Shown: piece after piece, positions 3,179 to 59,860 of the stretch
Numbering within the stretch: position 1 is the stretch's first letter
Layout of the letters: the number at the start of each line of letters is the position of its first letter
Assembly (NCBI GenBank): GCA_029194675.1
Contig: JARFXP010000001.1
Coordinates: 1,542,501 to 1,606,500, forward strand
From: Nitrospira sp.
Lineage (GTDB): Bacteria; Nitrospirota; Nitrospiria; Nitrospirales; Nitrospiraceae
Length of the DNA: 64,000 nt
Direction: 5' to 3'
Translations under genes and position numbers: made by a program
Notes under the pieces: model-generated
Told to the model about the DNA's origin: nothing
The model's database searches: none
The model's input: the letters and a program-made list of their open reading frames with translations, nothing else

Positions 3179-3820
3179 ATGATCCGATTGGACAAACATC
3201 TCGCTACTGGTGATCGCTCCTCCCCAATCTCATTACAACCAGAACGCGAACTGAAACTAGCCGTCGATCCTAATTTCCGCATCCCTCGACTTCCCGGAAC
3301 GCCGCTCCCCCGACGACAGCTGATCTCCACCTATTACGACACCGTTGCCTATGACTTGGCCCATGCGAAGATTACTCTTCGCCATCGAATCGAACGGGGG
3401 AAAAAGTCTTGGCAGTTGAAAATTCTCTTGGGCAATGATCGGCAGGAAGTGGAAGTGCCTGACGATCAGGGAGATCCACCGGCTTCTCTCCGCCATCTGG
3501 TGATGCTCCATTTAGGGCATCGGAAACTGTTGCCGGTCGTGAGCCTGCGAGTCAGACGGTCGGGCATCCTGGTACAACAACATCGTCATCCTGTCGCTGA
3601 AGTGACCCTCGATAATGTGACCGTGGTGAAGAATGGCTCCGTGATCCAGCGGTTCCGTGAGTTGGAAATCGAACAACGGCAGGGCGATGAGGCCGCGCTT
3701 CGTTCCCTCGAACGGCACATGCGCGAAGCCGGTGCGTCTGGTCATGATGGACAGCCAAAGTTCTTTCGTACCCTCTCCCTCGCAGCTTCCATACCCCCCG
3801 CGCAGCCCCAGCCGTTTTGA
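3179..3820 (+). CDS. CYTH-domain protein lacking CHAD (copy A)
   Basis: A 213-residue CYTH (triphosphate tunnel metalloenzyme) domain. The signature ExExK is seen as ERELK near residue 22, followed by RRQLISTYYDT and RHRIERGKKSW tunnel strands and the FRELEIEQRQG acidic motif. The family binds triphosphates or polyphosphate with a divalent metal. Copy B (9077-10564) continues into a CHAD domain, but here the reading stops just after QPQPF where the paralogue reads QPQTEAP, so CHAD was lost. The domain itself looks intact and may still work alone. Confidence 0.85.
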   Translation: MIRLDKHLATGDRSSPISLQPERELKLAVDPNFRIPRLPGTPLPRRQLISTYYDTVAYDLAHAKITLRHRIERGKKSWQLKILLGNDRQEVEVPDDQGDPPASLRHLVMLHLGHRKLLPVVSLRVRRSGILVQQHRHPVAEVTLDNVTVVKNGSVIQRFRELEIEQRQGDEAALRSLERHMREAGASGHDGQPKFFRTLSLAASIPPAQPQPF

Positions 3821-7025: not shown

Positions 7026-7204
7026 GGAGTTCCGCAGTGATTCACAACTTCGGTCGCGACATGCTGGACGGCACAAGAAGCGTTGCGTCCCCCAGCGAAC
7101 CCCCTATGTCAGGCCATCATACGGCCTGCCATAGAATTAAGACGTGTTCCGGACAATCTCCCCTGATGTGAAACTGTTAAAATGATCGCGTGCGCGGAAT
7201 CGCC

Positions 7205-8308
7205 ATGCCGGAACATGTGATCATCACCAAAGGGACCTGTTTCGCCCTTTTCGCCTACGATGTCGGCCTCTCCATCAACCTGACTGATGCGGAGCGACGG
7301 ATTATCGCCGGGACGGAGCGAGGGCGACTGCGCCATAAGACCAGAGCCCCTCAGTATTTCGAGTATCGACCGGCTCCCCTGCGACTCGTTCAGGAAGGAA
7401 GCGTGTTCGACGTCAGTCAGTATCAGACCAGTCCGACGGTCGAAGCGATGGTGTATGACTTCGGGGCTGTGACCATCACCTATCGCTTCCCGATCGACGG
7501 ACCGTTCGATCGGTTACTGGATCTGAGCGAGTCGCTCTACGAGCATGAACAACTTCTGACCGAATCGCGCGCTCGCGTGGAACAGCTGCTCCAAGTGTTG
7601 GGCCCCGCAGTCGAGCGGCCGTCCATTGCGCAGGAGGTGGAAGATTACATTATTTTCTTGATTGAGTCCTCTGTACCGGAGAAGCCTCCGTTGTGGACGA
7701 GCAACGAACCTGACTTAGCTCATCTCTTGCGCGCAGAACGAACGCCGTTTTCCGAGCAAGAAGTGGCCGACGCGGTCTCCTGCCGGATCTCGTTCGGTCA
7801 ACAGGATGCTGCGATCATCGACTGGCATTCAGCGGTATTGTTCGGCAAGGAGATGGACGACGTCCGGGCGGTGCTAGAATTCGCCAACGTCGAGTTGCTG
7901 GAGATGCGAATACTCGACGAACAACTCGATCGTGCACTGGACGAAGGCTACGAAGCCTTGTCTCGAAAACCGCGCTTCCTGTCTCTGCCGGGCTCTCATG
8001 AAAAGGACATGACGCACATTGCGCAGCTTCAGGTCGACAGCGCGTTGATTTTTGAACGCGTCACCAACACCTTGAAGCTGCTGGGCGACCAGTATCTTGC
8101 GCGGGTCTATCGGCTGGTCTCGCAGCGCTTTCACTTGGAGGCCTGGGACGCGAGCATCCTGCGCAAACTTCAGACGTTGGAAAGCATTTACGGCAAGATG
8201 TCGGACCGAGCCGGCACCAGACGGATGGAGGTGCTTGAGTGGATTATCATCATTTTGATCACGCTTTCCATCGCCCTTCCGTTTCTCCCGATAGGGGTCG
8301 GTCACTGA
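7205..8308 (+). CDS. RMD1/DUF155 family membrane protein (copy B)
   Basis: A 367-residue full-length member of the RMD1 (DUF155) family. Visible features are the N-terminal DVGLSINL strand, MVYDFGAVTITYRFP, a long helical region with QLDRALDEGYEALSR and VDSALIFERVTNTLKLLGDQYLARVYR, the motif DRAGTRRMEVLEWIIIILI, and one C-terminal membrane helix. Eukaryotic members sit in the mitochondrial inner membrane. The bacterial role is unknown. The ATG at 7205 is preferred over a GTG at 7190. It starts the intact RMD1-CBS-CYTH/CHAD block. Confidence 0.85.
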   Translation: MPEHVIITKGTCFALFAYDVGLSINLTDAERRIIAGTERGRLRHKTRAPQYFEYRPAPLRLVQEGSVFDVSQYQTSPTVEAMVYDFGAVTITYRFPIDGPFDRLLDLSESLYEHEQLLTESRARVEQLLQVLGPAVERPSIAQEVEDYIIFLIESSVPEKPPLWTSNEPDLAHLLRAERTPFSEQEVADAVSCRISFGQQDAAIIDWHSAVLFGKEMDDVRAVLEFANVELLEMRILDEQLDRALDEGYEALSRKPRFLSLPGSHEKDMTHIAQLQVDSALIFERVTNTLKLLGDQYLARVYRLVSQRFHLEAWDASILRKLQTLESIYGKMSDRAGTRRMEVLEWIIIILITLSIALPFLPIGVGH

Positions 8309-8940: not shown

Positions 8941-9076
8941 CCTTACCTTCGCCTCCATGTCGCCAGTTGCATGGGCGAACTGCCCTCCTATTCCCTGCCC
9001 ACCCCCTGACTTGCATTTCCCTCTCCGCTGCGTTGACACTTATAGGGTAGGTCGGCTCTGCCATGAGGATTCCACG

Positions 9077-10564
9077 ATGACTCGGTCGGACACCCATCTC
9101 GCGCCTCTTTACCGCTCAGGTTCGATTTCGTCGCAGACCGAGCATGAACTCAAGCTGGCCGTTGCTCCCGGCTTTCGCATGCCTCGGCTTCCCGGCACAC
9201 CGCTCCCCCGGCGGCAGTTGATATCCACCTATTACGACACGGCCGCCTACGACTTGGCCCATGCGTGGATTACTCTTCGCCACCGAATCGAACGGGGGAA
9301 AAAGTCTTGGCAGCTGAAAATTCCGTTGGGCGATGATCGGCAGGAGATAGAAGTGATCGACGGCGAGGCCGATCCACCGGCCTCGCTCCGCGACTTACTG
9401 ATTCTCCATCTCGGACATCGGAAACTGATGCCAGTCGTGACGATGCGCGTGTGGAGAAGGGGCTTCCTGGTGCGTCATGGCCAAGTACCCGTCGCGGAAA
9501 TCGCTCTCGACACGGTGTCAGTCGACAAGAACGGCCGCACCACCCAGCGCTTTCACGAACTCGAGATCGAACAACGGCAGGGCGACGAAGCCTCGCTCCG
9601 TTCCCTCGAACGGCAGCTGCGAGAAGCGGGTGCGTTCGATCACGACGGGAGGCCCAAGTTATTTCAGGCCCTCTCCCTCCCGGCCCGTACCTCACCTATG
9701 CAGCCTCAGACGGAGGCGCCGGTGGTCGAATACATAAAGTGGGCACTCTCTCAGCACGTCGGATGGCTCCTCGCTCATGATCCCGGCACGAGGCTTGGAA
9801 CCGAGCCTGAGAGCCTCCATCAAATGCGTGTCGCGACAAGACGCCTGCGCGCGGTGCTCCGCACAGCGCGACCCCTCCTCCTCCCTGCGTGGATGACGTC
9901 ACTGCAACAGGAGCTCAAGTGGCTGAGCGAGTTGTTGGGACCAGCCCGCGATCTCGACGTCCAGATCGCCTATTTCACGGAGGAATCTGCCGATTTGGGG
10001 GAGGGAGATCGCAAGTTGTTGGCACAATTTATCTCCCACCTGCGCACTCAACGAGCGGCCGTTCAGCAGATGGTCCTCAGCGAACTCACGAGCGCTCGAT
10101 ACTTCGAACTCATCCGGCGGCTGCAACAAGCGGCGCAGGCCCCCTCCTCGATCGTGGAGTCTTCCCTAACCGTCCGCCAACTCGCCAAGCGAGAATTCAA
10201 GAAACTGCGCAAAGCGATCTGCCGGCTAGGTCCTTCGCCATCAGACACCCGACTTCATAAGGTCCGTATCAAGGCCAAACGCGCCCGCTATGCGACGGAA
10301 CTCGCGTGCAGCTCGATGGACAAACCAGCCGGCCGGTTTATCAAGTCGACGCGCGCAGTCCAGGATCTACTGGGCATCCATCAGGATGCGATCCAAGCGG
10401 AACGTCACATTCGACAGTTTCTGAAATACTCGACGAGTGTCCGCGCCGGATTTCTCGCAGGACGCATGGCCGAGCGGCAACGGCATCGGCGAGACACCAT
10501 CCGCAAGGACATGAAACCGCTGTTCAAAACGTTACTGAAACGGGGGAAGAAGGCCTGGGGATGA
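9077..10564 (+). CDS. CYTH-CHAD domain protein
   Basis: A 495-residue two-domain protein. CYTH (about residues 15-205) has the ExExK motif as EHELK, STYYDT, RHRIERGKKSW and HELEIEQRQG. CHAD (about residues 220-490) shows the conserved basic helices LHQMRVATRRLRAVLR and HKVRIKAKRARYATEL. CHAD domains bind polyphosphate, and CYTH-CHAD fusions are thought to act on or sense inorganic polyphosphate. The ATG at 9077 follows GAGGATTCCACG exactly as in copy A, so the upstream in-frame ATG at 8957 is rejected. Confidence 0.9.
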   Translation: MTRSDTHLAPLYRSGSISSQTEHELKLAVAPGFRMPRLPGTPLPRRQLISTYYDTAAYDLAHAWITLRHRIERGKKSWQLKIPLGDDRQEIEVIDGEADPPASLRDLLILHLGHRKLMPVVTMRVWRRGFLVRHGQVPVAEIALDTVSVDKNGRTTQRFHELEIEQRQGDEASLRSLERQLREAGAFDHDGRPKLFQALSLPARTSPMQPQTEAPVVEYIKWALSQHVGWLLAHDPGTRLGTEPESLHQMRVATRRLRAVLRTARPLLLPAWMTSLQQELKWLSELLGPARDLDVQIAYFTEESADLGEGDRKLLAQFISHLRTQRAAVQQMVLSELTSARYFELIRRLQQAAQAPSSIVESSLTVRQLAKREFKKLRKAICRLGPSPSDTRLHKVRIKAKRARYATELACSSMDKPAGRFIKSTRAVQDLLGIHQDAIQAERHIRQFLKYSTSVRAGFLAGRMAERQRHRRDTIRKDMKPLFKTLLKRGKKAWG

Positions 10565-11000
10565 AAGGAATAACGGTGCTGTCAGCTAAACCGATCGATC
10601 ATATGAGCAAGTGGGGGCTGGCAAAGTCGTTCGCTCCTCGTCGGCAACAACGGTGTCCATATGGGGTATCCCTGAAGCTGGTGACATAGGAAAGGGCCCG
10701 GGAAATTCGAGACGTAGCGGCCGCGCCAGAGAGCGCAATCAATCACTTCAATCTGCACAAAACAAGATCTGCCCCTCAGTTTTACACCGAACGGGAAGAA
10801 TGCGAAGTCTCAAAGAGGAGTGTGTCTTGACAGCTCAACAACGATTGGGCAGGAGATCAAGCTTTGCATGGATTGCATTGATTCTAAAAAGCTATTCGGG
10901 GTATAGTCCGCACCAAACTCTTGACATACAGTTCGTAGCATGAACTTTCCTGCCTGTATAACTTTCCTGTCTGTATCTTGTGGATACGAATTTTGAGGTA
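10565..11000. promoter_or_regulatory. Leader of ABC-TIR operon with 17-bp tandem repeat
   Basis: No gene is seen. Just before the operon, AACTTTCCTGCCTGTAT (10943-10959) is followed directly by a second unit differing at one base (10960-10976). A TTGACA box is at 10921-10926 and a TATAGT at about 10910, but no convincing -35/-10 pair with normal spacing was found. The tandem repeat is a candidate operator for the downstream operon. Confidence 0.45.
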
Positions 11001-12008
11001 ATGGTGAAGCGCTACCATTGTTCGCTCGCCAGTTTGGTGGGAATTCTTGTTATCGTGACAGTGCTAATGCTCGTTCAAGCATGTCGGCGGGATGAGTCGG
11101 CATCGTTGAAACCCCTAACATGGGGCGGACCAAAAAACATCTCCATGATTCCCATCATTGCAGAGCGGAAAGGATTCTTTCAAGAAGCAGGCCTTCGCGT
11201 TAAAGCAAACTACGTGCAAACGGGCAAGGTAGCTATGGACGCCATAATCAGTGGGGATTTGGATTTCGGAATCATAGTGGACACCAATATTGCATTCATC
11301 AAGTTCCAGGATGGGTCTGACATCAAGGTAATTGCTAGTATTGCCGAAAAGCACGATGACGCCATTGTCGCCCGTCAGGATCGGGGTATCCAAAAACCAC
11401 AAGATCTAGAGGGAAAGACTCTGGCAATCCTCACTGGGACCACCTCTCACCGTTTCGCAGATCTGTTTGTAGACTTTTACCACCTCGACCGAAAGAAAAT
11501 ACATTTTCTCAACCTCAGCCCTCCAAGCATTCAGGCTGGGATCATTAATGGAAACATTGAAGCAGGCTCAGTGTGGCAACCCTATCGGTACAACGTCCAG
11601 CGAGAATTAGGAAACAAAGCTATTCAATTCAATGACAAGCGTATCTATACGGCCTACTCGCTCGTTGCGATCAGAGAAGGCTTGGCAAATAAAAGACGGA
11701 AGGAAATTACAACTTTTCTCCGTGCGCTGATCGAGGCTGAAGAATTTATTCGCGATCACAAAGATGAAGCCATCGACATTTTGAGCGAGGAATTGAATAC
11801 TGAGAAGAACGTACTCAAGGCTGTCTGGGACGAATATCAACTCACTGTGGATTTGGATGAAGGGTTAGTTCGAACGTTCAGGGATGAAGGTCAATGGATC
11901 ATGAGAACGCAAAAAGGTTTTGGAGGGAAAGCTGTGCCGTCATACGAAGATGTGCTTGACACCGATTTCCTTCGCCAGATTGATCCGAAGCGGATCAAGG
12001 TCACTTAG
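11001..12008 (+). CDS. ABC transporter substrate-binding lipoprotein (NMT1/SsuA/TauA-like)
   Basis: A 335-residue periplasmic binding protein with a lipoprotein signal peptide ending in the lipobox LVQAC, then a type-II binding fold of the NMT1/SsuA type. Visible are IAERKGFFQEAGL, MDAIISGDLDFGII, DLEGKTLAILTGTTSH, and helix-rich EITTFLRALIEAEEFI. Relatives bind sulfonates, taurine, nitrate, bicarbonate or thiamine precursors. The ligand cannot be assigned. The ATG at 11001 (GAGGTA just before it) is chosen, with a GTG at 10980 as alternative. First gene of a six-gene operon with TIR proteins. Confidence 0.85.
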   Translation: MVKRYHCSLASLVGILVIVTVLMLVQACRRDESASLKPLTWGGPKNISMIPIIAERKGFFQEAGLRVKANYVQTGKVAMDAIISGDLDFGIIVDTNIAFIKFQDGSDIKVIASIAEKHDDAIVARQDRGIQKPQDLEGKTLAILTGTTSHRFADLFVDFYHLDRKKIHFLNLSPPSIQAGIINGNIEAGSVWQPYRYNVQRELGNKAIQFNDKRIYTAYSLVAIREGLANKRRKEITTFLRALIEAEEFIRDHKDEAIDILSEELNTEKNVLKAVWDEYQLTVDLDEGLVRTFRDEGQWIMRTQKGFGGKAVPSYEDVLDTDFLRQIDPKRIKVT

Positions 12009-12019
12009 GGCCGACAGAC

Positions 12020-12829
12020 ATGTCAACCACCGCCTTACAAAACAAATGGGGGGACGTAACGAGCGAGAGTTCCAACCGCTGGGCGAGATTGGGTCTTGCA
12101 GTATCAGGGCCGTTGTGTTTGTTCATCGTTTGGCTAGCAGTGACAGAGTTTCAGCTTGTGCCGAAACTGCTTGTTCCACACCCGATAAACGCATTGGAGC
12201 TGCTAACCCAGATGCTCCGGAGCGGCGATATCCTCCCGGATATCTGGGCATCACTCTACCGTTGGGGAGCAGGGTACTCTCTGGGATGTCTTATTGGGGT
12301 TCCATTTGGACTTCTAATCGGAAGTTCACCTGGGCTCTATAGAGCAAGCTTCTTTTTGCTTGATTTCTTTCGTTCGCTGCCGGTGACCGCACTTTTCCCT
12401 TTGTTTCTCTTGCTGTTTGGGATTGGCAATAGTTCTAAGATCGCGATGGCCTTTGTCGCCACGGTGTTTGTCGTTATATTGAACAGCGCCTACGGGGTCC
12501 TACAAGCCAAGAAAGCGCGTCTTCGGGCGGCAAGAGTCTTTGGGGCATCGCCATGGCAAGTGTTCAAGTGGGTCGTATTTTTCGAGGCCTTGCCTCAGAC
12601 ACTCGTCGGCATGCGCACGTCGCTCTCGCTTGCCCTGATCGTGGTGATCGTGAGTGAAATGTTTATTGGCACTAGGATAGGTCTCGGGCAGCGCGTCTAT
12701 GATGCCTATACCCTCAACCTGACTGAAGAACTCTATGCCATTCTGGTCCTCACAGGAGTGTTAGGCTATTTGATAAACCGATTGTTCATTGCCGCAGAAA
12801 GACGTATCGTTTTCTGGACAGGAGAATGA
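12020..12829 (+). CDS. ABC transporter permease (SsuC/TauC-like)
   Basis: A 269-residue inner-membrane permease of the BPD_transp_1 family with about six helices. The EAA-loop is visible as RAARVFGASPWQVFKWVVFFEALP, followed by the LSLALIVVIVSEMFIG segment typical of SsuC/TauC permeases. It starts 11 bases after the binding-protein gene and overlaps the ATPase gene by four bases (ATGA), so the three form one importer. The N-terminus is slightly longer than usual. Confidence 0.9.
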   Translation: MSTTALQNKWGDVTSESSNRWARLGLAVSGPLCLFIVWLAVTEFQLVPKLLVPHPINALELLTQMLRSGDILPDIWASLYRWGAGYSLGCLIGVPFGLLIGSSPGLYRASFFLLDFFRSLPVTALFPLFLLLFGIGNSSKIAMAFVATVFVVILNSAYGVLQAKKARLRAARVFGASPWQVFKWVVFFEALPQTLVGMRTSLSLALIVVIVSEMFIGTRIGLGQRVYDAYTLNLTEELYAILVLTGVLGYLINRLFIAAERRIVFWTGE

Positions 12830-13602
12830 CCGACCGATCATCCCACATCACCATCAAGCACGCCGGTAAGACATTTGGAAGCGGAGCCACTCGGGCGCCC
12901 GTCTTGCAGAACATCTGTCTGGAGGTCAAGCGTGGCGAATTTGTCACGATTTTTGGCCCCAACGGGTCAGGCAAGACGACATTGCTGAACGTACTTGCCG
13001 GCATCGAGACATTAGACGAAGGGTCCCTCACCATAAACTCTCCCGATGGCGTACCTCGCGTCGGATACGTGTTTCAGGATTACCGGGGGAACCTGCTGCC
13101 CTGGCTGACCGTGGCCGAGAATATCGCCTTTCCTCTGAAGATCAAGAACGTTCCCAAAGCGCGCCGATCTGAAAAAGTCGAGGCCCTGTTGGACCGGTTT
13201 AATCTCAAGCTTGACCTCAATGCGCGGACCTATACGCTCTCTGGCGGACAAGCGCAGATCGCTTCAATCGTTCGCGCGCTGGTCATCGAACCGGAAATAC
13301 TTATCATGGACGAGCCGTTTTCGGCATTGGACTACCAAACCAACTTGACGCTCTACGAGAAGATGCTCTTCATCTGGCAGTCTTCGCGTGTCACGATTCT
13401 ACTCGTCTCGCATGACATTGATACTGCGCTCTATCTGGGGGAGCGGACGATCTTTCTCACCAAACGCCCTGCATCAATTGCGGGGATTCTAGAAAACAAG
13501 CTGACAGGGCCAAAAGAGTTAAGTCAGATGGCTAGCAATGATTTTTCCATCCTGAAACGACAGGCACTGGAGATTTTTCAACACGAGGCCTTGCGGAAAT
13601 AG
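12826..13602 (+). CDS. ABC transporter ATPase (SsuB/TauB-like)
   Basis: A 258-residue nucleotide-binding subunit. Walker A is GPNGSGKTT (residues 44-52), the Q-loop is YVFQDYRGNLLPW, the signature is LSGGQAQ, Walker B is EILIMDEPFSALD, and the switch histidine is LLVSHDID. All catalytic residues are present, so it should be active. It overlaps the permease stop by four bases. It energises uptake of whatever the upstream lipoprotein binds. Confidence 0.92.
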   Translation: MTDRSSHITIKHAGKTFGSGATRAPVLQNICLEVKRGEFVTIFGPNGSGKTTLLNVLAGIETLDEGSLTINSPDGVPRVGYVFQDYRGNLLPWLTVAENIAFPLKIKNVPKARRSEKVEALLDRFNLKLDLNARTYTLSGGQAQIASIVRALVIEPEILIMDEPFSALDYQTNLTLYEKMLFIWQSSRVTILLVSHDIDTALYLGERTIFLTKRPASIAGILENKLTGPKELSQMASNDFSILKRQALEIFQHEALRK

Positions 13603-13614
13603 GACTCCTTGCTC

Positions 13615-14919
13615 ATGGAGCAAGCTTCTCGTCTCAAAGCGGAGAACGCGATGAAGGCACTGAGTTCGGAAGGGTCTCCCAAATTTCTATGCAATGGCGC
13701 CGCCGTGCATTTCGTTTATTCATTTAGCATTCAAGCGAACGGGTCGTATGTTGTGGAACCAAGGGAGGTAACGAAAAATGGGCGAGGATGGAAAACGGAC
13801 CTGCCTCCCAGCCGCCTCGGTATTCTTCCCCATTTAACCTTCAAACCGCGATCCGCATGGCACGACGGTGAACAGTTTGATGGAACCGTAAGGCAAGGCG
13901 ATAAATCTTATAGGGTGAAGGTTAACATATTCACGCGGTTGTTTACGCTTGGCGGCACGTGCTGCCTGACTATTCAAACTTCAAGAAAAGACGACAATGA
14001 TCTGGATACAAATGCTGTCCTCGGTCTAATCGGTCTTGTGCGACTAAGGAAGAAAGAGGCCAAAACTCCAGGTCATAGTAAATTGTTTCTTGATGATCGA
14101 GATGAGCCATTGAAGTCGGTTTATCCTCTTTTCAGAGACTCGGTTCGCGTCAGATGCAAGGAGGCCGGGATTAATTGGTGCGAGGATGGTCAGTTCAAGT
14201 TTATCGATGCCAAGAAAGAGGTTCAAACACCGTGGGTGGTGACCGTACTAGAAGTCGATGGCAAGGTCGCAGAAGCGTTTTGCAGTTCTGGTGGCGAAGA
14301 GGCAGATCGGGCGAAAGAGAAGATGCGGAGAATTCGTGAATTCGAATCCGAAGTAGCACCCATTCTGTTCCGATCGGTGAGCAAAGAATTCCACGTTGAA
14401 CCCTGTTATCTCTCACCCCCAGCGCCGGGTATTGGCTCTGGGCTCTCCAGTGTCAATGTCGATGCTCGTCTTTTTGTCAGCATTTCACGGCGGTCCATGC
14501 TGTGTATATGTCCGGACAAAGACAAGGATCCTGCACAGTACTTTCTCCCGAGTCTATTGGATATCTGTGAGCTCATTCGAGTGCGATGGCATATGTTAAT
14601 CGTCATGAACAAGGTCGTGGATGACTTCCTAAGTCAGCTTAGTCGGGGTGGGGACCGTAGCTCTGAAACAGAGCACCACCACGAAGAGATGATGAAACTC
14701 CGCGCCTGGCTAGCGATGAACCTCGAAGACCCGGGAATTTATATCGTGGCTGGCGATGCCCTATCGCAAATCTATGATGATCAGCGGAAAACCTTTAGAT
14801 TGGACGAACTCAGAACGATGTTATTAGGGAAAATGGATTTGCTGGACAGAATGTACCGAGACGCAATGGAGTTGAGTTGGGCTCAGCATTCGCCAGGACG
14901 CCGTAGAAGGAACAAGTAG
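13615..14919 (+). CDS. Unknown protein of the ABC-TIR operon (434 aa)
   Basis: A protein of about 434 residues with no recognised family. The N-terminal half (residues about 15-150) looks beta-rich (FVYSFSIQANGSYVV, LTFKPRSAWHDGEQFDGTV, CCLTIQTS). The C-terminal 150 residues are helical. Its end (LSQIYDDQRKTFRLDELRT, then LLDRMYRDAMEL) resembles the helical part of RMD1 proteins (ARVYRLVSQRFHLEAWDAS, then LESIYGKMSDRA) but lacks the membrane helix. It begins 12 bases after the ATPase and ends 29 bases before the first TIR gene. A role linking transporter and TIR enzymes is conjecture. Confidence 0.7.
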   Translation: MEQASRLKAENAMKALSSEGSPKFLCNGAAVHFVYSFSIQANGSYVVEPREVTKNGRGWKTDLPPSRLGILPHLTFKPRSAWHDGEQFDGTVRQGDKSYRVKVNIFTRLFTLGGTCCLTIQTSRKDDNDLDTNAVLGLIGLVRLRKKEAKTPGHSKLFLDDRDEPLKSVYPLFRDSVRVRCKEAGINWCEDGQFKFIDAKKEVQTPWVVTVLEVDGKVAEAFCSSGGEEADRAKEKMRRIREFESEVAPILFRSVSKEFHVEPCYLSPPAPGIGSGLSSVNVDARLFVSISRRSMLCICPDKDKDPAQYFLPSLLDICELIRVRWHMLIVMNKVVDDFLSQLSRGGDRSSETEHHHEEMMKLRAWLAMNLEDPGIYIVAGDALSQIYDDQRKTFRLDELRTMLLGKMDLLDRMYRDAMELSWAQHSPGRRRRNK

Positions 14920-14948
14920 CGTTACCCCAAAAAAGAGCGAACGCCATT

Positions 14949-16004
14949 ATGGTTTCTGCAGATGAATACGACAAATTTCTCAAGCATTGCGAGAAGGCCC
15001 AGAAGGAAGTTAGGAAGGCACAGGGTCAATTCAGGACATACGAGACGGAGGTGCTCCACGAGCGAAGAGAGAGATTGGACCGGACCGAGGCTTGGGGCAC
15101 CATGGAGGACCTCATTCACGAAGAGTTGATGCTTCTCGTGAATCTGATGATTTTTGCGGTGAACAATCGAAAAGATTTGGATGCGAAGGAACTTACTCGA
15201 TGGTCGGATATTGTCACGAAAATAGACAGGCAGGCTCGAAAAGCGAAATCGGACTTGCCATACCGTCTCGGTCTGGCATCTACCAGGTCTTTCACTCAGT
15301 GGAAGACAGACAAGGTGGTTTTGAGAGATTTGGCGCTGAAACATTGGGGAGTCGTGGACGCCATGGCTAAAGAGAAGGAGAAACTCCCTCCTATGTTGAA
15401 GTCACACGTGGATGAGATCGAAAAAGCGCTTAAGAATGTTGGATGGCTGTTCGTAGTCTTTATCTGTTATGCGAAGGAAGATGGAAAGTACGTTAATGAT
15501 CTCTTTCGGTTCTGTCAGCCTCAACTTGAGAAGGCCAATCACCTGGTACTTTGGTTCGGCGACAGACGTTCATTTGAAGATATGCACGCTCAACACGGAA
15601 AACCATTTGACAACAGGGGAGGGCATTGGTGGGAGACGAATGTGGCTCTAAATAAATGGCACGGGCAACTGTTGGATCACATTGATGATGTCGATCTTGG
15701 TATCACTTTGGTGAGCGAACGCTTTTTCGACTTGGAATACATTAAGAAACAGGAGTTTCTCGACATCCTCCGGGATCGGCAAGAAGAAGGCATGCGCATT
15801 TTTCCCGTCATCCTCGACAAGCACAAATGGGAAGAACACCGATGGTTAAGGTCAACAGATTTCTTGCCGCATCCTGGGAAGACGGTCATGCACGACTACG
15901 GAGATGAAAAGAACCTCAGACGATTGTACTGTGAGGAGTTCGTGACGAGATTGAGGGGAATGGTGACCGATCTTTCCGATGTCGAGAAGGTCAGGCTACC
16001 ATGA
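14949..16004 (+). CDS. C-terminal TIR-domain protein 1
   Basis: A 351-residue soluble protein. Residues 1-160 are helical and charged with no known family. Residues about 166-310 form a TIR-like fold: FVVFICYAKEDGKYVNDL (strand A/helix A), HLVLWFGDR (strand B), DLGITLVSERFFDLEYIKKQE (strand D and the helix bearing the glutamate that is catalytic in NAD-cleaving TIRs, here E269), and MRIFPVILDKHKWEEHRWL (strand E). TIR domains in bacterial defence cleave NAD or make cyclic ADP-ribose signals. It overlaps the next gene by four bases. Confidence 0.82.
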   Translation: MVSADEYDKFLKHCEKAQKEVRKAQGQFRTYETEVLHERRERLDRTEAWGTMEDLIHEELMLLVNLMIFAVNNRKDLDAKELTRWSDIVTKIDRQARKAKSDLPYRLGLASTRSFTQWKTDKVVLRDLALKHWGVVDAMAKEKEKLPPMLKSHVDEIEKALKNVGWLFVVFICYAKEDGKYVNDLFRFCQPQLEKANHLVLWFGDRRSFEDMHAQHGKPFDNRGGHWWETNVALNKWHGQLLDHIDDVDLGITLVSERFFDLEYIKKQEFLDILRDRQEEGMRIFPVILDKHKWEEHRWLRSTDFLPHPGKTVMHDYGDEKNLRRLYCEEFVTRLRGMVTDLSDVEKVRLP

Positions 16005-17032
16005 AGCACCCAAATGCGATCCGTGCCGAGGTCGGGCAGCTTATTCAGTCGTGCGATCGGGTTCGAGTGCGCCTTGATGCTGCTACGGCTGAGTTGAGAA
16101 AGCGCGAACAGGATATGGAGCCAAAGCGGTTCAGATGGTGGACGGAAAGTGCTGCATGGGAGACGGTTAATACGTTACTTCGAGAAGACTTAGCCATTCT
16201 CACCCGACTTCGCGATCTGGCAGCAAGAAAGCGGCCTATAAGCAAACCCACCTTGGAACGGTGCCGGGCACTTATCGGTGATGTTGGTCGGTCGGCTTTC
16301 GATCTCGCTGAGCGTTTTCCTTCCATAATGATGCGCCAATCATTACCGGCTAGCCAGTCGCTTGCTCATGATAAAGCTGTGCTTCGTGCTTTGACGCGAA
16401 CTCACTGGGATTTAGTAGACAATCTGAGTAAGATGCCGGATGCTGTCTACGCTGAAGTAAAGGACCATATCGAATCATTGACAAGATCGCTTGAAGATGT
16501 CGGTTGGCTCTTTGTGATCTTCATCTGTTATGCACGGAAGGATGCGGCGTTTCTCAATGACCTTTTCCGCCTGAGTCAGCCTCGACTCAAGGATGATCAT
16601 GTTGTGCTGTGGTGGGATGATAAACCATTCGAGAAAAAGAGATCCCGGTACTGGTGGCAACGAAAAATCATCGGGGCGAGCGAGTGGCACAAGGAACTGA
16701 TGAACCATATTGACGACGTAGACCTTGGCATTGTTTTAGTGAGCAAGCCATTTTTTGCTTCCACGTACATCAAGAACAATGAATTGCCCAGGATGGTGAA
16801 GAAACGGAAAAAAGAAGGCATGCGCATCTTTCCCATCATTCTAGAAGGATGTAATTGGAAGAAAGAGGATTGGCTGAAGGCAACGCAATGGCTGCCCGGT
16901 AGAGGAAGAACGGTTCAAAGGGACTACTATACGGAGCCAGACCTTAAACGGCTCTACGCTGATGAATTTGTCCCCGAAATCAGAGTCATTATTGACGAAT
17001 TGTCGGACCCTGAAAAAGCCATCAGACCATAA
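16001..17032 (+). CDS. C-terminal TIR-domain protein 2
   Basis: A 343-residue paralogue of the upstream protein with the same layout: a helical N-terminal region (1-165), then TIR (about 168-305). Visible are VIFICYARKDAAFLNDL, HVVLWWDDKPF, DLGIVLVSKPFFASTYIKNNEL (candidate catalytic E261) and MRIFPIILEGCNWKKEDWL. The TIR parts of the pair are much closer than the N-terminal parts. It starts inside the stop of TIR 1 (ATGA), which implies translational coupling and a fixed ratio. Last gene of the operon. Confidence 0.82.
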   Translation: MKHPNAIRAEVGQLIQSCDRVRVRLDAATAELRKREQDMEPKRFRWWTESAAWETVNTLLREDLAILTRLRDLAARKRPISKPTLERCRALIGDVGRSAFDLAERFPSIMMRQSLPASQSLAHDKAVLRALTRTHWDLVDNLSKMPDAVYAEVKDHIESLTRSLEDVGWLFVIFICYARKDAAFLNDLFRLSQPRLKDDHVVLWWDDKPFEKKRSRYWWQRKIIGASEWHKELMNHIDDVDLGIVLVSKPFFASTYIKNNELPRMVKKRKKEGMRIFPIILEGCNWKKEDWLKATQWLPGRGRTVQRDYYTEPDLKRLYADEFVPEIRVIIDELSDPEKAIRP

Positions 17033-17064
17033 GGCTGCTGGGACTGACTTGTCATAGCACGTCG

Positions 17065-18243
17065 CTATTCTTGGAACAGGGTCCGATCCGCTTCCAATTT
17101 CCCCAAGAGAATCTCGGTCACTTCGTCACTCGGGCGCATCAGCGAGCCGGCCCGCGCATCTCGCCACAACATCTCGACACGCTGCCCGATATTGTAGCCA
17201 CTGCCACCAAAGACCTGCATGGCGAGATCGGTTGTGTGCCTTGCAGCCTCACAGCCAAGAAGTTTGCCAGCCAATGCGTCCTTGATGAGATGCCCACGTC
17301 CCTCGTCTGTCTCCAATCTTCGGGCCGTTTCCTGGATGAGGGCTCGACCGGCAGCCAACTTGGCCGATTGGGCTCCAAATCGGCTTTGCCAAAGCGACGT
17401 GTCCGCCAGTGCGGAATTTGTATGGGGGAACCAGCGGGCCTTGGCTCGTTCGATTGCCAAGGCAAAGGCCTCCTCTGCAATCCCCAGGTACAAAGCAGCG
17501 TGGCTTAGCAACAGCAGGTTGAACATGTCCGTGGCAATGTAATCGTTAGCTCGACCGGGATTGCCCATCAAGTGATCGTCTGAAACAACCGCGTTCACAT
17601 GAACAGGCCCAGAACTGCTGCCCCGCATTCCCGTGCCCCGCCACGCGTCGCGGGATTCTACACCCGCAGATCGCTCGACAAGAAACAAGCTGATTTCGTC
17701 GATGGCCGCAGTCGGATGAGCGCGCGTAGGGACAACAAAAATGTCGGCGACCTCTGCTAATGTGGCCCAGTCCTTCGTGAGACGCACTCGCCATCCGCCC
17801 TCGATCTTCTCTGCTGAACTCTTCAGAGCCCAAAAATTTGTTCCCGTGGCGCGTTCGGTTCCAGCGTAAGCCACGGTGAGTTGACCTTCGGCAACTTGTG
17901 GGAGAATGCGTCGCTTAACGTTGGCATTGCCAGTGGCCACGATCACAGACGTGGCACATAGATGCATCAGATGGCAGAGTGTTGTGCTGGGGCAAGCTCG
18001 GCCCATCTTACGAACTACTTCAAGCCACTGTGTTGGCCTAAGGGCAGGTCCTCCGTATTCCTCGGGAACAACCAGCCCAAGCAGGCCTGCCTGACGAAGC
18101 AAATCCCAATTCGTCTTTGAGAACTGTCCGCTTTGGTCCACGGCGCTGGACCGCTCGCGCAGTTGACCTAGCACCTCTTGAAACGTGACACTCGATTCGT
18201 TCTCACACTCATATTGAGCTTGTCTTAGTGCCGACGTTACCAT
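17065..18243 (-). CDS. Acyl-CoA dehydrogenase-fold flavoprotein
   Basis: A 392-residue member of the acyl-CoA dehydrogenase superfamily: N-terminal helical domain (LLRQAGLLGLVVPEEYGG), middle beta-domain (YAGTERATGTNFWALKS) and C-terminal helical domain (MQVFGGSGYN, LWRDARAGSLMRPSDE). Where classical dehydrogenases have YEGT with the catalytic glutamate, this one has LMRPSDE, as in flavin-dependent monooxygenase relatives such as DszC/SfnC. It faces the SsuABC-like operon tail to tail, so a link to sulfur scavenging is possible but unproven. The ATG at 18243 follows GGAGGTGGCC. Confidence 0.85.
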   Translation of the reverse strand: MVTSALRQAQYECENESSVTFQEVLGQLRERSSAVDQSGQFSKTNWDLLRQAGLLGLVVPEEYGGPALRPTQWLEVVRKMGRACPSTTLCHLMHLCATSVIVATGNANVKRRILPQVAEGQLTVAYAGTERATGTNFWALKSSAEKIEGGWRVRLTKDWATLAEVADIFVVPTRAHPTAAIDEISLFLVERSAGVESRDAWRGTGMRGSSSGPVHVNAVVSDDHLMGNPGRANDYIATDMFNLLLLSHAALYLGIAEEAFALAIERAKARWFPHTNSALADTSLWQSRFGAQSAKLAAGRALIQETARRLETDEGRGHLIKDALAGKLLGCEAARHTTDLAMQVFGGSGYNIGQRVEMLWRDARAGSLMRPSDEVTEILLGKLEADRTLFQE

Positions 18244-18969
18244 GGCCACCTCCACGGTATGCGATCAAGATTGACGGTCTGAAGCCTAAGGCGAATATGT
18301 TTCGATGCCTTGTAGGTATTGCTTGTCACCCTGCGGTCTTGCTCAATCTGGTCGATAGAAACCGTATTTATTCTGATGAAGTACAAAATCTTTGTCAATC
18401 TGGCGCCGCCAGAAAAGGGCGATGGCAACCATTCGGATGGCAAAACCTCGCCAGGGGGATCTCGACCAAGAAAGGAGGCACCGCCGTGACCGAGCAAAAC
18501 ATACCGATCGGAGTCGAGTCGTCGAATAACAGGAATCGGGACCCTTTGTATTGGCGATAGCGATGCAAGCGAACCGTTCGCTTGCGGATGGAAAGGGAAT
18601 ATGGCGTGGGTTTGATGCAATGGGAACAGGACGATCTAGTGTAGTGCCCCATAAGTTCCTTAACCTTCTGTTCGTGGTGATCCTGTCGAACCATGAACGG
18701 AACCAATTGAAGACGCTTGCCCTTCGACAAGCTCAAGCGGAGTGAATCTTCGGGTCGGACCTTGAATCGTGCATTCTCCTCTTTCTGAGGATTCACCATG
18801 TATCCAATTCCAATATGTATGATGCAAGTCCAGCTCCTCTTTTCTTCGCGCTGTCAGCACAGACCAACCGCGTACTTTTATAGAAAATCAGGAATTCTGT
18901 CTTCCACCTTGCGGAGCGCTTGTGCCATACTCCCATGCTACGTAATTCGACCTGTAGCGAGGTCCGGCT
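18244..18969. other. Non-coding remnant region
   Basis: No supported gene. It contains a perfect inverted repeat GCAAGCGAAC-C-GTTCGCTTGC (18565-18585) and a CTTCGACAAGCTCAAGC motif (about 18723-18739) of the kind found in dispersed extragenic repeats. Short frames on both strands lack ribosome sites. Confidence 0.45.
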
Positions 18970-19397
18970 TTGCTTCTCGTGCTCTTCCTCCTCGTGGCGT
19001 TGTGGCAGGGAACCGTGCCCAGCATGGCTCGTAGCGACGAGTCGCCTGCTTCAACTGTGCCTCGCACCCTCATTCAGAATGCCGGGCTCCTCATCACGAT
19101 GGATCCTACGCTCGGTGAAGGCCCATTGGGGACACTCGCGAACGCGGACCTGCTCTTCGCTGGAGATTCAATCGTCGCGGTGGGGAAGGGACTTTCCGCC
19201 GACGATGCGGCAGTGATAGACGCGACCAGTGTCGTTTTAACGCGCAACCGTCCAACGTTACATTCGTCTTTGTCCATGGCCGGGCCCTCAGGGCCAACGG
19301 ACAGTCTACCGGCTTGTCGGTGATGGAGGTGGTCAAGGCAGCGGAAGCCTCGGCGGCTCGTCTACAGGACGTCGTACGGAAGAAGCCCCGTAAGTGA
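18970..19397 (+). pseudogene. Amidohydrolase remnant, core deleted
   Basis: The N-terminus is a signal-like LLLVLFLLVALW segment followed by LIQNAGLLITMDPTLGEGPLG and ADLLFAGDSIVAVGKGL, the start of a cytosine-deaminase/atrazine-chlorohydrolase-type amidohydrolase. Near 19240 the sequence jumps, in another frame, to the family's C-terminal end (VTFVFVHGRALRANG, EAEAS-like AAEASAARLQD, stop at 19397). The whole metal-binding barrel, about 1 kb, is missing, so it cannot be functional. Confidence 0.75.
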
Positions 19398-21225: not shown

Positions 21226-21975
21226 GGATGGCTTCATTGCGTCGCGCACGGTCCGCACGAGACCTGACGGAGAAGAAGCGGCGTAGCGGCGGTCGGGCCG
21301 CAAACCGTTGTGGTCGGGGAATTTCTTTGAGGAGATGTTTGTCTCGAAATTCACCCCTCAGGCGCTCGACAAATCGCTCGGTCCCGAGGAGCACCTGTCT
21401 GCGGACCTGTTCCTAGGGTGAGGGGTGGCCGATCCCCTCTGCGACAAAGGCCCGGTACTTCCGTTGAGCCGCCGCACGCTGATGTCCGAACTGGGACAGC
21501 AGCCAGTCCACGGTCAAGAACGGCGGCACGGAGACAAGTCCCGTCGTCGTCCTGTAACTTGACCAGGGATAGGTATCGGGTTTGCGGATGGTCCTGGCAC
21601 GCACCGGATTGAGCACGACATACCAGCAGAGCTCCAGCAGGTAGCCCCCTCGGTCTACCACAATCGCTTCGAAAACGACCTTGCAGCACGCGATCAACTC
21701 GACCGTGACGACGGTTGGAGGATCGGGTATGGATGCCGTTGAGCTGACACAGGGCCCTCGACAGATTGGCCTCGGGCGTTTCCACCAGCAGGTGAAAGTG
21801 GTTATCCATCAGGCAATAGGCGTGCAGCCGAAGATGAAAGCGGGAGACGACTTTACCAAGCACTCCGAGAAAGCGTTGTCGGTCCTCATCATCCAAGAAG
21901 AGGTCCTGCCGGGCGTTGCCCCGTGCAGTAACGTGGTAGAGCGCGCGTCGGGAGGAAATGAACGACCGTCGGCGT
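21226..21975 (-). pseudogene. REP-associated tyrosine transposase (RAYT), frameshifted
   Basis: A Y1-type single-strand transposase relative spread over three frames. The N-terminal part has RRALYHVTARGNARQDLFLDD and LHAYCLMDNHFHLLVETP, the HUH motif with the conserved histidines. A middle part in another frame reads KVVFEAIVVDRGGYLLELCWYVVLNPVRA and YPWSSYR. A C-terminal part reads LLGTERFVERLRG and LKEIPRPQR. Frameshifts near 21690 and 21400 and the lack of a start codon show decay. RAYTs mobilise REP elements. Confidence 0.85.
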
Positions 21976-40786: not shown

Positions 40787-42382
40787 TCAGTCACGGCCAG
40801 GCAGCTTGCGACCGGACGAACCGGCGGAGATCATAGGATCGCCGTACTTGACAAGCACACTTTCAGGCAGTGGTTTCGACAGCGCCGCTCTCGCCCAGAG
40901 CATACCTCCCCTGGCCACGGCGTAGTCGGCCTGCGCTCGGTACAGCTCATAGGCCGCTGCGATCACCGCACGCTCTCGTATGTTGACGAAGAGCACACTC
41001 GTTGCTCCCATATTAAACCGGGCTCGTTCGCCTTCTTCTAAGGTCTTGGCCAAGCGCAGGGCTTCGGTTGCGGCTTTCACTCGGTCTCGGGCCCGCACAA
41101 TCGCCGAGAGCCAGTTATCAACGTCGACCGTAACTTGTCGCTCCGTGTATGCGATTTTCCATGTCAATCGTTCCTGCTGCGCTTCTGCGTGAAGGACCTT
41201 CCCTCGGGCACCCCGATTGAACAACGGCATACTGAGGAGCGCACCCAGTCGGTAGGAGAACCCTCCAAGGTAGTAGATAGCGCCCGTCACCGGCCCCCCC
41301 TCAACCGTTAGTTTTGGAAGCAGACTATTCTTCGCCAGTTTCAGTTCGATATTGTTCAATTTGAATTCAATGTAGAGATCGCGCACTTCTGGGCGATCCT
41401 CCGTGGCTTCCACCTTGTAGGCCGCCACATCCTCTTCGCTCGGCAACGGCGTTTCCCCCTGAAATTCTGGGGCCCATTCAGGGCGAGGTGTCACAGGTTG
41501 GCCGTCTTCCCAGAGAAATAGCGCAAGCTTATATTGCTCATACTCGACCTTCCGTTGCGCGGCAATGGCAGCCTCTCGACGCTGCTGAACTTCTTCTCGG
41601 GCTTCGACCACGTCGATCGGAGCGACCGCGCCGGCTTTGGCTCTCCCCTCAACCATGCGATAGCGCTCTTCCGCGACGGCCAGCGCACGCTTCACCACAT
41701 CGGCTTGTTTGACGGCAACCTGCCAATCCCAGTATTGAACGGCGGCAGCGAGATAGAGATCTTGCCGTTTCTGGGCCACCTTGACCTCGGCTTGCGGCCC
41801 GGCGAGCTCCGCCTGTTGGAACCCGGCATACTGTTCGTTGACCATGAATCCCCGCAGGAGATTGAAGGATCCGCCCATGATCAACACTTGCTGCGGATAG
41901 AACAGTTGCATGTCTTGCGGGATCCCCACCCCGGGACTTATTGGGCCACTATCTGGTACGCCGATGCCGCTCTGGCCATTGATAACACCTCTATCCCCGA
42001 AGCCGTTACGGATACCGAGCATCAGCTCGAACCCATAGGGGTGCCCGACCTTGAGAAAGGTATCGTTATAGCCAGCATTCATGATATTCCTGCCAAAAAC
42101 GTTCGTCAGATCATACGTTTCAAACCGGTCCCACTCGAGCTCGTTCCGAACCTTCGGCTCCCACGCACCCAACGCTTTCATGATTTTCGCCCGAGCCTGC
42201 GCCCGCTCGAGTCCGGTGGCCCGGAGCAGCGGATGGGTCAACTCGATCCTGGCGAACAGCTCTTCAATGGTCAGGGGAGCGGTGCGAGTCGACTGAGCCT
42301 GCAGGGCACTCGAGTCGATCACCGATTCCGCCAGCGCGGTCGCCGGCACAATCATCAACGAGCACAGCAAGAGAAGGATCAA
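40787..42382 (-). CDS. TolC-family outer-membrane efflux protein 1
   Basis: A 531-residue TolC-type channel with a signal peptide (LLLLCSLMIVPATALA), then two OEP repeats rich in coiled coil (VKVAQKRQDLYLAAAVQYWDW; FNMGATSVLFVNIRERAVIAA). The start is TTG at 42382, placed after AAAGGAGCATCCTTCC exactly as the ATG starts of its two paralogues upstream. It is the most diverged of the three. It presumably forms the outer-membrane exit for the HlyD/ABC pair downstream. Confidence 0.88.
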   Translation of the reverse strand: MILLLLCSLMIVPATALAESVIDSSALQAQSTRTAPLTIEELFARIELTHPLLRATGLERAQARAKIMKALGAWEPKVRNELEWDRFETYDLTNVFGRNIMNAGYNDTFLKVGHPYGFELMLGIRNGFGDRGVINGQSGIGVPDSGPISPGVGIPQDMQLFYPQQVLIMGGSFNLLRGFMVNEQYAGFQQAELAGPQAEVKVAQKRQDLYLAAAVQYWDWQVAVKQADVVKRALAVAEERYRMVEGRAKAGAVAPIDVVEAREEVQQRREAAIAAQRKVEYEQYKLALFLWEDGQPVTPRPEWAPEFQGETPLPSEEDVAAYKVEATEDRPEVRDLYIEFKLNNIELKLAKNSLLPKLTVEGGPVTGAIYYLGGFSYRLGALLSMPLFNRGARGKVLHAEAQQERLTWKIAYTERQVTVDVDNWLSAIVRARDRVKAATEALRLAKTLEEGERARFNMGATSVLFVNIRERAVIAAAYELYRAQADYAVARGGMLWARAALSKPLPESVLVKYGDPMISAGSSGRKLPGRD

Positions 42383-42407
42383 GGAAGGATGCTCCTTTGT
42401 TGCTGAA

Positions 42408-43952
42408 TCAATCGCGTCCCGGTTGTTTGTAGCCGTTCATGCCGGCCGCCGTCAGAGGGTTCCCGTACTTGGCCAACTCGCTTTCGGGCCACGGCTTCGA
42501 CAAGACTCCCCTGGCCCACAACATACCTCCACGCGCCACCGCGTAGTCGGCCTGCGCCCGATACAGCTGGTACGCCGATTCCACCACGTTGCGCTCACGG
42601 AGGTTCACAAAGAGGACGGTGGTCACGCCCATATTGAATCGGGTCCGTTCGCCCTCCTCCAGCGTCTTCGCCAACCGCAGCGCTTGCGTCGCAACCTTCA
42701 CCCGGTCTCTAGCCCGCACTTGGGCCGAGAGCCAGTTGTCCACGTCGACGCTGACTTGTTGCTCGGTGTACAGCTGTTTCAGGACCAATTGTTGCTGGTC
42801 CGCTTCTGCGGTCATGACCTTCCCACGCCCTTCCCGCTGGAACAGCGGCATCGCAAACCTCGACTGGAACGTATACCCGACTCCCACAAGCCAGTCCGCG
42901 GCCTCTGGATGTAGCCCCCCCCCAACATCCAACTGTGGGAGCAGGTAGTTCTTGGCGAGCTTGATGTCGATATTGTTCATCTTGGCTTCGATGTAGAGGT
43001 CCCTCACTTCCGGCCGAGCTTCTTTCGCCTCCACTTTATAGGCCGCGACCTCGTCGTTGGTCGGGAGCGGCGTTTCGCCCTGGAATTCCGGCGCCCACTC
43101 CGGTCGCGGCGTCACCGGCTCGCCGTTCTCCCAGAGATAGAGGGACAGTTTGTACTGCTCATACTCCACCTTCCGCTGGGCGGCAATGGCTGCCTCTCGC
43201 CGAATCTGAACCTCTTTGTTCACCTCGATCACATCGAGCGGCGTCGCCTGCCCGCCCTTGGCCAACCCTTCGACCTGGACCAAGCGCTCGTCGGCAACGG
43301 CCAAGGCGCGCTTCACAATCTCGGCTTGTTTCACGGCGACCTGCCAATCCCAGTACTGCACGGCACCGGCGAGATAGAGGTCTTGCCGTTCGTGCGCCAC
43401 CGCGATCTCCGCCTGCGGCCCCGCGAGTTCGGCCTTTTGAAACTCGGCGTACTCGTCGTTGATCATGAGGCCTCGCAGCAGCTTGAACGACCCACCGACG
43501 TTCAGTTGCTGCATAGAATAGAACATCTGGGCATCAGGGATGGCAGCATGGATGAACATCGTACGGTCATCCCCAAAGCCGTTGCGGAGCCCGCCAAAGA
43601 CCCGGAAGCCCCAGGGATGCCCGACCTCGAGCTCGGTGTCTACAAATCCCCCCGTATTCTCATCGAGGGTGCTCAGGAAATTCCAAGTCTGAAAACGAGC
43701 GACCTGCATATTTGCCTTGAACGCCGGTTCCCAGGCCCCGAGCGCCTTCAGGATCTTCGCCCGGGCTTTCATCCGTTCAACCCCGGCCGCCCGAAGCAGC
43801 GGATGCGTCAACTCGATACGGGCGAGCACTTCGTTGATGGTCAGGAGCTCGGTGCGGGCGGACTGCGCTTTCAACACGCTTGAATCGCGCACCGGTTCCG
43901 CCAGTGTCGTCACGGGAAGCCAGATCAGAATCACGAGTAATAGAGCGGCCAT
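42408..43952 (-). CDS. TolC-family outer-membrane efflux protein 2
   Basis: A 514-residue TolC-type protein with signal peptide (LLLVILIWLPVTTLA-E) and two OEP repeats. It shares with copy 3 a stretch of about 170 bases identical at the DNA level (43005-43175 and 44573-44743). The start is ATG at 43952 after AAGGAGCATCCTTCG, so the longer upstream frame is rejected. Same strand and short gaps (about 25 bases) show one transcript for all three. Confidence 0.9.
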   Translation of the reverse strand: MAALLLVILIWLPVTTLAEPVRDSSVLKAQSARTELLTINEVLARIELTHPLLRAAGVERMKARAKILKALGAWEPAFKANMQVARFQTWNFLSTLDENTGGFVDTELEVGHPWGFRVFGGLRNGFGDDRTMFIHAAIPDAQMFYSMQQLNVGGSFKLLRGLMINDEYAEFQKAELAGPQAEIAVAHERQDLYLAGAVQYWDWQVAVKQAEIVKRALAVADERLVQVEGLAKGGQATPLDVIEVNKEVQIRREAAIAAQRKVEYEQYKLSLYLWENGEPVTPRPEWAPEFQGETPLPTNDEVAAYKVEAKEARPEVRDLYIEAKMNNIDIKLAKNYLLPQLDVGGGLHPEAADWLVGVGYTFQSRFAMPLFQREGRGKVMTAEADQQQLVLKQLYTEQQVSVDVDNWLSAQVRARDRVKVATQALRLAKTLEEGERTRFNMGVTTVLFVNLRERNVVESAYQLYRAQADYAVARGGMLWARGVLSKPWPESELAKYGNPLTAAGMNGYKQPGRD

Positions 43953-43975
43953 CGAAGGATGCTCCTTGTGCCGGA

Positions 43976-45529: not shown

Positions 45530-45671
45530 GAGGGATGCTCCTTTCACATCGGGTGACGGACGGCGCCCACAGTAGCAATCTCCCGTTCGCTTTTCAAAAT
45601 AGATAAAACGGATTGGAGTTATCGGCAAATCCGATGTATAGTGTCATCTCTCATTCGAGGCCTAGGACCAT

Positions 45672-58663: not shown

Positions 58664-58869
58664 ACTTCAAACAATTTCGCAGGCCAGCGAATGGACACTC
58701 CCGCACCGCCATAGCAGGCGGGCGGATTGTCGGCGGACGCGGCTTTCGGTTGCAATCGAAACTGGGCCGAGCCATCACCTTGGATCGTCTCGAGTCTCTC
58801 CTCGCACACGCACGCCAGCCGAGTAGGGGCACACAGGGCGGCATCACCTCCACACGCGGAGCGCGATAG
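58660..58869 (+). CDS. Small basic protein before integrase (69 aa)
   Basis: A 69-residue, very basic protein (FRRPANGHSR, GGRGFRLQSKLGRAI) coupled by ATGA overlap to the upstream gene and ending 13 bases before the integrase start. Size and position fit an excisionase or directionality factor, but no motif proves it. Confidence 0.45.
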   Translation: MNFKQFRRPANGHSRTAIAGGRIVGGRGFRLQSKLGRAITLDRLESLLAHARQPSRGTQGGITSTRGAR

Positions 58870-58882
58870 AGGCCAGCAGACC

Positions 58883-59809
58883 ATGACCATCGGCGAATTC
58901 CTCACCATCTACGAACGGAACCACGTCGCGTTCCTCAAGAGCAGCCTCGGCACGAGTCGGCGATTGCAGAAGTACGTCGGGCGGCTGGGCCATGTCGAAT
59001 TAGCCGACTTGAAGCGGCTCCAGGTGATCGAGTGGTTCCACGATATCGCCAAGACCGATGGTCCTCATGGCGCGAATCTCGCCTTGCAACAGCTGCATGC
59101 GGTGTACGCGAAAGCTGACGATTGGGAGCTGTTTGCTGGGAAGAATCCAGCCTCCCGCATCAAGCGGTTTCCGAAGCTCTCTCGCCAGCGGTTTATCCAA
59201 ACCAATGAGATGCCGTATCTCCTCGCCTCGATCCGTGAGGCCAACCTACGCGATCAGGGATACTTTCTCACCTTGATCCTCACCGGCTGTCGGAGAGATG
59301 AAGCCCGCCTCATGCAATGGAAGGATGTCGATCTGGAGCGAGGCCTGTGGCATAAGCCGACGACGAAGACCGTGGTGCCTCACACCGTGCCGATTCCCGC
59401 TCGGCTGCTTGAGCTGTTTCAGCGATTCCCACGCCTCAATGAGTGGGTGTTTCCCTCTGAACCGAACAATAAGAACAAGCATCAATCGCGGCAATGGGCC
59501 GTGACCTCTGTCGAGCATGCCTGGCGCAAGATTCGGGCACGGGTCGGCCTGAACGACGTCCGGATTCACGATCTTCGGCGGACGACGGCGTCCTGGCTGG
59601 CGATTGATGGTGCGAATCTGCCGGTCATTCAGAAGGTACTGAACCATTCCTCCCTGACGTCCACCCAGGTCTACGCGCGGTTGTCGATTGAACCGGTGCG
59701 CAAGGCGCTTGACGAGCAAGCGGAGCGAATCCTCGGCACCCTCACGCCAGCTCCTACGCTCGCTCTTGGGGTGGAACCGATGGAACGGGCGCAGGAGTGG
59801 CCGGGATAA
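58883..59809 (+). CDS. Tyrosine recombinase (integrase)
   Basis: A 308-residue phage-type integrase. Core-binding helical domain (about residues 1-90), then the catalytic domain: TGCRRDEARLMQWKDVDL (first arginine), HDLRRTTASWLA (HxxR), LNHSSLTSTQVYARL with His and the nucleophile tyrosine. The start follows GAGGCCAGCAGACC. It is the probable enzyme for integration at the tRNA-Glu(CTC) fragment about 5.7 kb to the left. Confidence 0.92.
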   Translation: MTIGEFLTIYERNHVAFLKSSLGTSRRLQKYVGRLGHVELADLKRLQVIEWFHDIAKTDGPHGANLALQQLHAVYAKADDWELFAGKNPASRIKRFPKLSRQRFIQTNEMPYLLASIREANLRDQGYFLTLILTGCRRDEARLMQWKDVDLERGLWHKPTTKTVVPHTVPIPARLLELFQRFPRLNEWVFPSEPNNKNKHQSRQWAVTSVEHAWRKIRARVGLNDVRIHDLRRTTASWLAIDGANLPVIQKVLNHSSLTSTQVYARLSIEPVRKALDEQAERILGTLTPAPTLALGVEPMERAQEWPG

Positions 59810-59860
59810 GCGAAGGGACAAAGACGAGCGGGATGCGTTTGCGCCTGAAAGGAATGGTGA

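Follow-up and report, generated by a model that had tools for sequence, protein, structure and literature searches.

In a 64,000-nucleotide stretch of a Nitrospira genome (5.2 Mb in 16 contigs, 99% complete), hereafter the window, the genes of an ABC importer run directly into those of an orphan protein, g4, and two TIR proteins, TIR1 and TIR2, an arrangement that is real and so far unique. The reading we favour, to which we give an even chance, is that this is a horizontally acquired cassette, probably read as one transcript, that combines two separate functions, an importer and a TIR module. Genes 1-3 would encode an unremarkable importer of the NMT1/SsuA/TauA class that takes up a small organic compound, sulfonate-like or other, and genes 4-6 would form a TIR module not described before, whose most likely role is anti-phage defence or cell suicide.

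All six open reading frames lie on the + strand at 10980-17032, with gaps of 11, -4, 12, 29 and -4 bases, confirming from the sequence the layout given by the first-pass annotation; they are intact over 6 kb, with no internal stops and two 4-base overlaps. Gene 1 (10980-12008) encodes an NMT1/SsuA-type substrate-binding lipoprotein (Pfam NMT1, E 5.8e-23), gene 2 (12020-12829) an importer permease (Pfam BPD_transp_1, E 9.7e-15), and gene 3 (12826-13602) the importer ATPase (Pfam ABC_tran, E 4e-29). These are followed by g4 (13615-14919), a soluble protein of 434 residues with no family match, whose start is the ATG at 13615 (an alternative TTG at 13609 adds two residues). TIR1 (14949-16004) consists of a predicted helical N-terminal domain of about 165 residues and a C-terminal TIR domain (TIR_2 at 170-295, E 3.2e-4), and TIR2 (16001-17032) repeats this architecture with a ThsB-like TIR domain (TIR_2 at 173-301, E 1.3e-8). 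No strong terminator stands out inside the six-gene run, where terminator-like matches (12) are near the shuffled expectation (8.4 +/- 2.6), and co-transcription as one unit is therefore likely; the gap of only 12 bases between the ATPase gene and g4, together with the base composition common to all six genes, also argues for a single transcription unit. The earlier statement that no described system has this composition also held, as neither PADLOC, Pfam nor NCBIfam gave a match for the set and a literature search did not return the combination.

The six genes lie within an insertion of about 8 kb (approximately 10568-18740, with the left edge at 10568-10726 and the right edge at 18256-18845) with a CYTH-CHAD gene on its left and the remnant of an amidohydrolase gene on its right. 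In two relatives, G073 and G108, the site is empty: only about 75 bp are found there, the flanks are about 90-93% identical (mostly 88-94% over the closest relatives in the window alignment), and the missing window positions run from 10565 to about 19187 in G073 and from 10565 to about 18849 in G108. A third relative, G107, carries a different insert of about 7 kb at the same site, indicating that the site is variable and that the six genes came as part of an insertion there. Their GC content is low (0.468-0.530, compared to 0.523-0.613 in 16 reference genes of the window), which makes horizontal acquisition probable. The insertion also contains an acyl-CoA dehydrogenase-family gene (17065-18255, - strand), which is on the opposite strand and outside the likely six-gene transcript. 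Its GC of 0.570 is host-like, a difference in composition that suggests joint transfer of the six genes and perhaps a separate arrival of the dehydrogenase gene. A sulfur-acquisition operon with the dehydrogenase as a partner is a possibility, but the other strand, the different GC, and an SfnB score of 89 bits against a cut-off of 430.9 speak against it.

Placement in a defence island, which the first-pass annotation had raised, found no support: the insertion is flanked by the CYTH-CHAD gene and the amidohydrolase remnant, and the only nearby PADLOC matches are weak ones given by an HTH/HigB-like pair. The remnant lies at 18970-19323, and G107 keeps a 467-residue amidohydrolase gene (L081 5154-6557, minus strand) near its own insert (L081 6766-13761), which by eye encodes a SorC-like regulator, a Sel1-repeat protein and a partial P450. 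On the other side, the full CYTH-CHAD gene (8957-10564) is preceded, at a distance of 5 kb, by a truncated CYTH-only copy (3179-3820) that is 69% identical to it; split copies occur in several relatives too. The right edge of the insertion carries a REP-like palindromic repeat (18670-18735) that has 8 more matches, full or partial, elsewhere in the genome, and a sequence 3 kb from it (21351-21896) resembles, by eye, a fragment of a REP-associated (RAYT-type) transposase gene. Four of these 8 matches are no more than 3 kb from TIR genes; enrichment near TIR genes was nevertheless rejected, the density being 0.16 per 10 kb at TIR loci and in the window alike. Farther along the window, also by eye, three tandem TolC-like outer-membrane efflux genes stand beside an HlyD/ABC exporter pair (40787-45628), and what is likely a degraded integrative element (58727-62921) holds a tyrosine integrase gene and, after it, a gene for an AAA (RepA-like) ATPase that seems to occupy two overlapping frames.

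The assignment of genes 1-3 as an SsuABC-like importer was upheld by Pfam and NCBIfam, which place an NMT1-like binding protein, a BPD permease and an ABC ATPase in one gene set. The ATPase, as previously claimed, keeps all of its motifs: Walker A GPNGSGKT, LSGGQ, Walker B ILIMDEP and the H-loop VSHD could each be read from the sequence. Every component nevertheless falls below the curated NCBIfam cut-offs of the families matched, SsuA, TauA, SaoA and SaoP among them, with scores of 112.8 bits against 163.5 for SsuA_fam (TIGR01728), 60.8 against 304 for taurine_ABC_bnd, and 73.8 against 347 for SsuC. These SsuA, TauA and SsuC scores do not support calling the set a true SsuABC (aliphatic sulfonate) or TauABC (taurine) importer, and since every component is under its threshold no substrate can be assigned. 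The binding protein is the only NMT1-family protein in the host genome (one match in an own-genome PF09084 search). Its nearest family relative (33% identity) is not part of a transporter operon; it is found among two-component genes and is followed by PAS-encoding sequence, which shows that NMT1-type proteins can be recruited for sensing. Another strong relative (E 4e-36), at L183 (G372:C99), belongs by eye to a catabolic cluster of TctABC-, FdrA- and DUF1116-type genes that holds two parallel NMT1-type ABC sets. On a Variovorax plasmid, the gene of the nearest plasmid relative immediately follows one for an acyl-CoA dehydrogenase-family protein.

TIR1 and TIR2 are paralogues that share 37% identity; by TIR_2 score, TIR1 (21.6 bits) is below the curated Pfam cut-off of 28 and TIR2 (35.8 bits) above it. 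Both retain the glutamate of TIR NADases, in agreement with the first-pass annotation: the C-helix glutamate, E269 in TIR1 (SERFFDLEYIKKQE) and its counterpart in TIR2 (SKPFFASTYIKNNE), aligns with that of other TIR proteins of the genome. The alignment also shows the TIR-fold motifs kept in both, and conservation of these features at 37% identity indicates selection on the pair. Judged from these residues, TIR1 and TIR2 likely cut NAD. The helical N-terminal domain of about 165 residues has no relative in anything searched. In an AlphaFold2 model made from a two-sequence alignment (mean pLDDT 51), this domain is helical with values mostly of 70-86 and dips to 37-53, while the TIR part is mostly below 50; Foldseek with the TIR1 model gave no match below E 0.36, none of them significant. 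TIR1 and TIR2 had no full-length relative among 175 family genomes and 396 phylum genomes, on plasmids or on viral contigs, nor in GTDB contigs by pattern scan or, for TIR2, in phages. Plasmid matches to TIR2 span the TIR part only, and the nearest of these adjoin SMC/SbcD-type, restriction or conjugation genes, not importers.

Between the importer and the TIR genes, g4 is an orphan by every search made. It had no match in Pfam, PADLOC or NCBIfam, nothing below E 0.47 in the PDB, and no relative in the 175 family and 396 phylum genomes (own genome excluded), in plasmids, in viral contigs, or in a pattern scan of GTDB contigs. Hydropathy peaks at 1.18 over 19 residues, so that there is no transmembrane segment, and domain searches found no SIR2, SLOG or macro feature. 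A single-sequence AlphaFold2 model (mean pLDDT 33.7) was unusable. A resemblance by eye between the C-terminus of g4 and a neighbouring 372-residue protein (7190-8308) was rejected, as hhalign gave E 0.37, which did not improve on shuffled g4.

Under the two-function reading that we favour, the helical N-domains of TIR1 and TIR2 would recognise a trigger, or keep the TIR domains apart until triggered; self-association of the TIR domains would then assemble the NAD-cleaving site, and the cell would be halted either by the loss of NAD or through g4, on which an ADP-ribose product would act. The importer would be dispensable for the action of the TIR module. The empty site in two relatives and the low GC common to the six genes are consistent with this scheme, as are the numerous TIR relatives of the genus, which were never accompanied by NMT1-type importers in the loci examined. 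Against it are the 12 bases between the ATPase gene and g4, the composition common to importer and TIR genes, and the fact that the sole NMT1-type importer of the genome sits here.

The step from TIR product to g4 could also be read as a Thoeris-like two-step pathway: TIR1 and TIR2 would serve as ThsB-like sensors producing an ADP-ribose-type signal, which would in turn activate g4, an effector of a new type. One unknown gene beside a pair of TIR genes corresponds to the layout of Thoeris (PMC11204291), and TIR2 matches the PADLOC ThsB1 model at E 1.4e-10. That match, however, covers model positions 34-106, or 73 of 319, and is confined to the TIR part, as is the match of TIR1 (0.0025), and g4 displays none of the SIR2, SLOG, macro or transmembrane features. 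We regard this pathway as possible but on the unlikely side.

Whether importer and TIR genes are coupled was addressed by their co-occurrence elsewhere. TIR_2 matches number 24 in this genome and 25 (G107), 20 (G073), 19 (G084) and 14 (G127) in relatives; TIR genes are very uneven across the genus, with none in many other species. We collected 56 TIR loci, 20 from the host genome and 36 from relatives, mostly of about 10-12 kb each (some end at contig ends) and containing 69 TIR ORFs, and queried them with the binding protein and permease of the window. Neither an NMT1-type binding protein nor a matching permease was present at any of the 56 loci, and neither was found near the nearest relatives of the TIR pair (0 of 20 loci). 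Conversely, the nearest phylum relatives of the permease, 27-33% identical, had no TIR gene nearby at any of 20 loci, which held their own ATPases and often a related binding protein, and no second copy of the six-gene cluster was present in any genome searched. The first-pass annotation had raised the possibility that an imported ligand, or loss of import, controls TIR activity, and had held the operon to be accidental if homologous TIR pairs mostly occur without the transporter or the transporter mostly without TIR genes; on that measure, the zero counts make the association a one-off. These counts lean toward no coupling rather than decide the matter, because no full-length relative of g4 or of the TIR pair turned up in any search and the comparison was limited to distant ones.

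Importer-gated signalling, in which an imported ligand or the transport state, relayed by g4, sets the activity of the two TIR enzymes in a nutrient-sensing suicide or defence operon, is accordingly improbable. What points to it is adjacency: the six genes are tightly arranged, share a low GC and came in a common insertion, and their importer is the only NMT1-type one in the genome. Under random gene order, a TIR gene at this short distance downstream, in the same orientation, would be expected in about one case in a hundred, a post hoc estimate that is weakened by the mobility of both gene types. The 33% identical relative of the binding protein among two-component genes, beside PAS-encoding sequence, is also compatible with a sensing role, and g4 could bridge the importer and TIR modules. 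However, no second instance of importer and TIR genes occurred in the 56 and 20 TIR loci or the 20 importer loci, g4 has no known domain for relaying a signal, and the literature search returned no description of a link between TIR proteins and an importer, so that importer control would have to be argued from a single instance. That the locus is instead passenger DNA, assembled by successive insertions and with no joint or current function, we consider quite improbable: the site is variable, the adjacent amidohydrolase is a remnant here and a whole gene in G107, and the dehydrogenase within the insertion differs in GC, but six intact, partly overlapping frames and two diverged paralogues that both keep the catalytic glutamate and fold motifs argue against it.

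To our knowledge, no link between solute import and TIR signalling has been reported so far, and control of TIR enzymes by an importer, if true, would be the first. Even if the two are not coupled, g4-TIR-TIR is a new candidate unit of defence that includes an orphan protein, and it occurs in bacteria with as many as 25 TIR genes in one genome; the predicted helical N-domain of its TIR proteins was not found in any other of the phylum genomes searched.

Compared with known systems, genes 1-3 resemble the NMT1-type importers SsuABC, TauABC and NrtABC in domain content and in all ATPase motifs, but differ in scoring below the curated thresholds of the matched NCBIfam families. The partners that define CBASS, SPARTA and retron-TIR systems (cyclase, Argonaute/APAZ and reverse transcriptase, respectively) were not detected among the six genes by Pfam or PADLOC, and no solved TIR protein structure matched the TIR pair by sequence. 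For the TIR module, the nearest comparisons are SpbK and Thoeris. In SpbK, an anti-phage protein of Bacillus subtilis, an N-terminal four-helix bundle senses a phage portal and a TIR filament cleaves NAD (PMC12847820). TIR1 and TIR2 share with it the order of a predicted helical N-terminal domain followed by a C-terminal TIR domain with the catalytic glutamate, and by analogy would be expected to cleave NAD. SpbK, though, is a single protein of 266 residues with an N-domain of about 94 (PMC12847820), while here there are two longer paralogues with N-domains of about 165 residues, an orphan partner and an importer. Thoeris consists of one ThsA effector gene and one or several ThsB TIR genes (PMC11204291); the likeness lies in one non-TIR gene beside several TIR genes and in the ThsB-like TIR core of TIR2, and the difference in the lack of a recognisable ThsA, g4 having neither SIR2-SLOG nor TM-macro architecture. 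Because g4 is without any ThsA feature, and because the N-domain is longer than that of SpbK and has no detectable sequence relative, the TIR module, as judged by sequence comparison, would belong to neither system. Together, these comparisons suggest that the locus pairs an importer of ordinary appearance with a new variation on the TIR modules already known.
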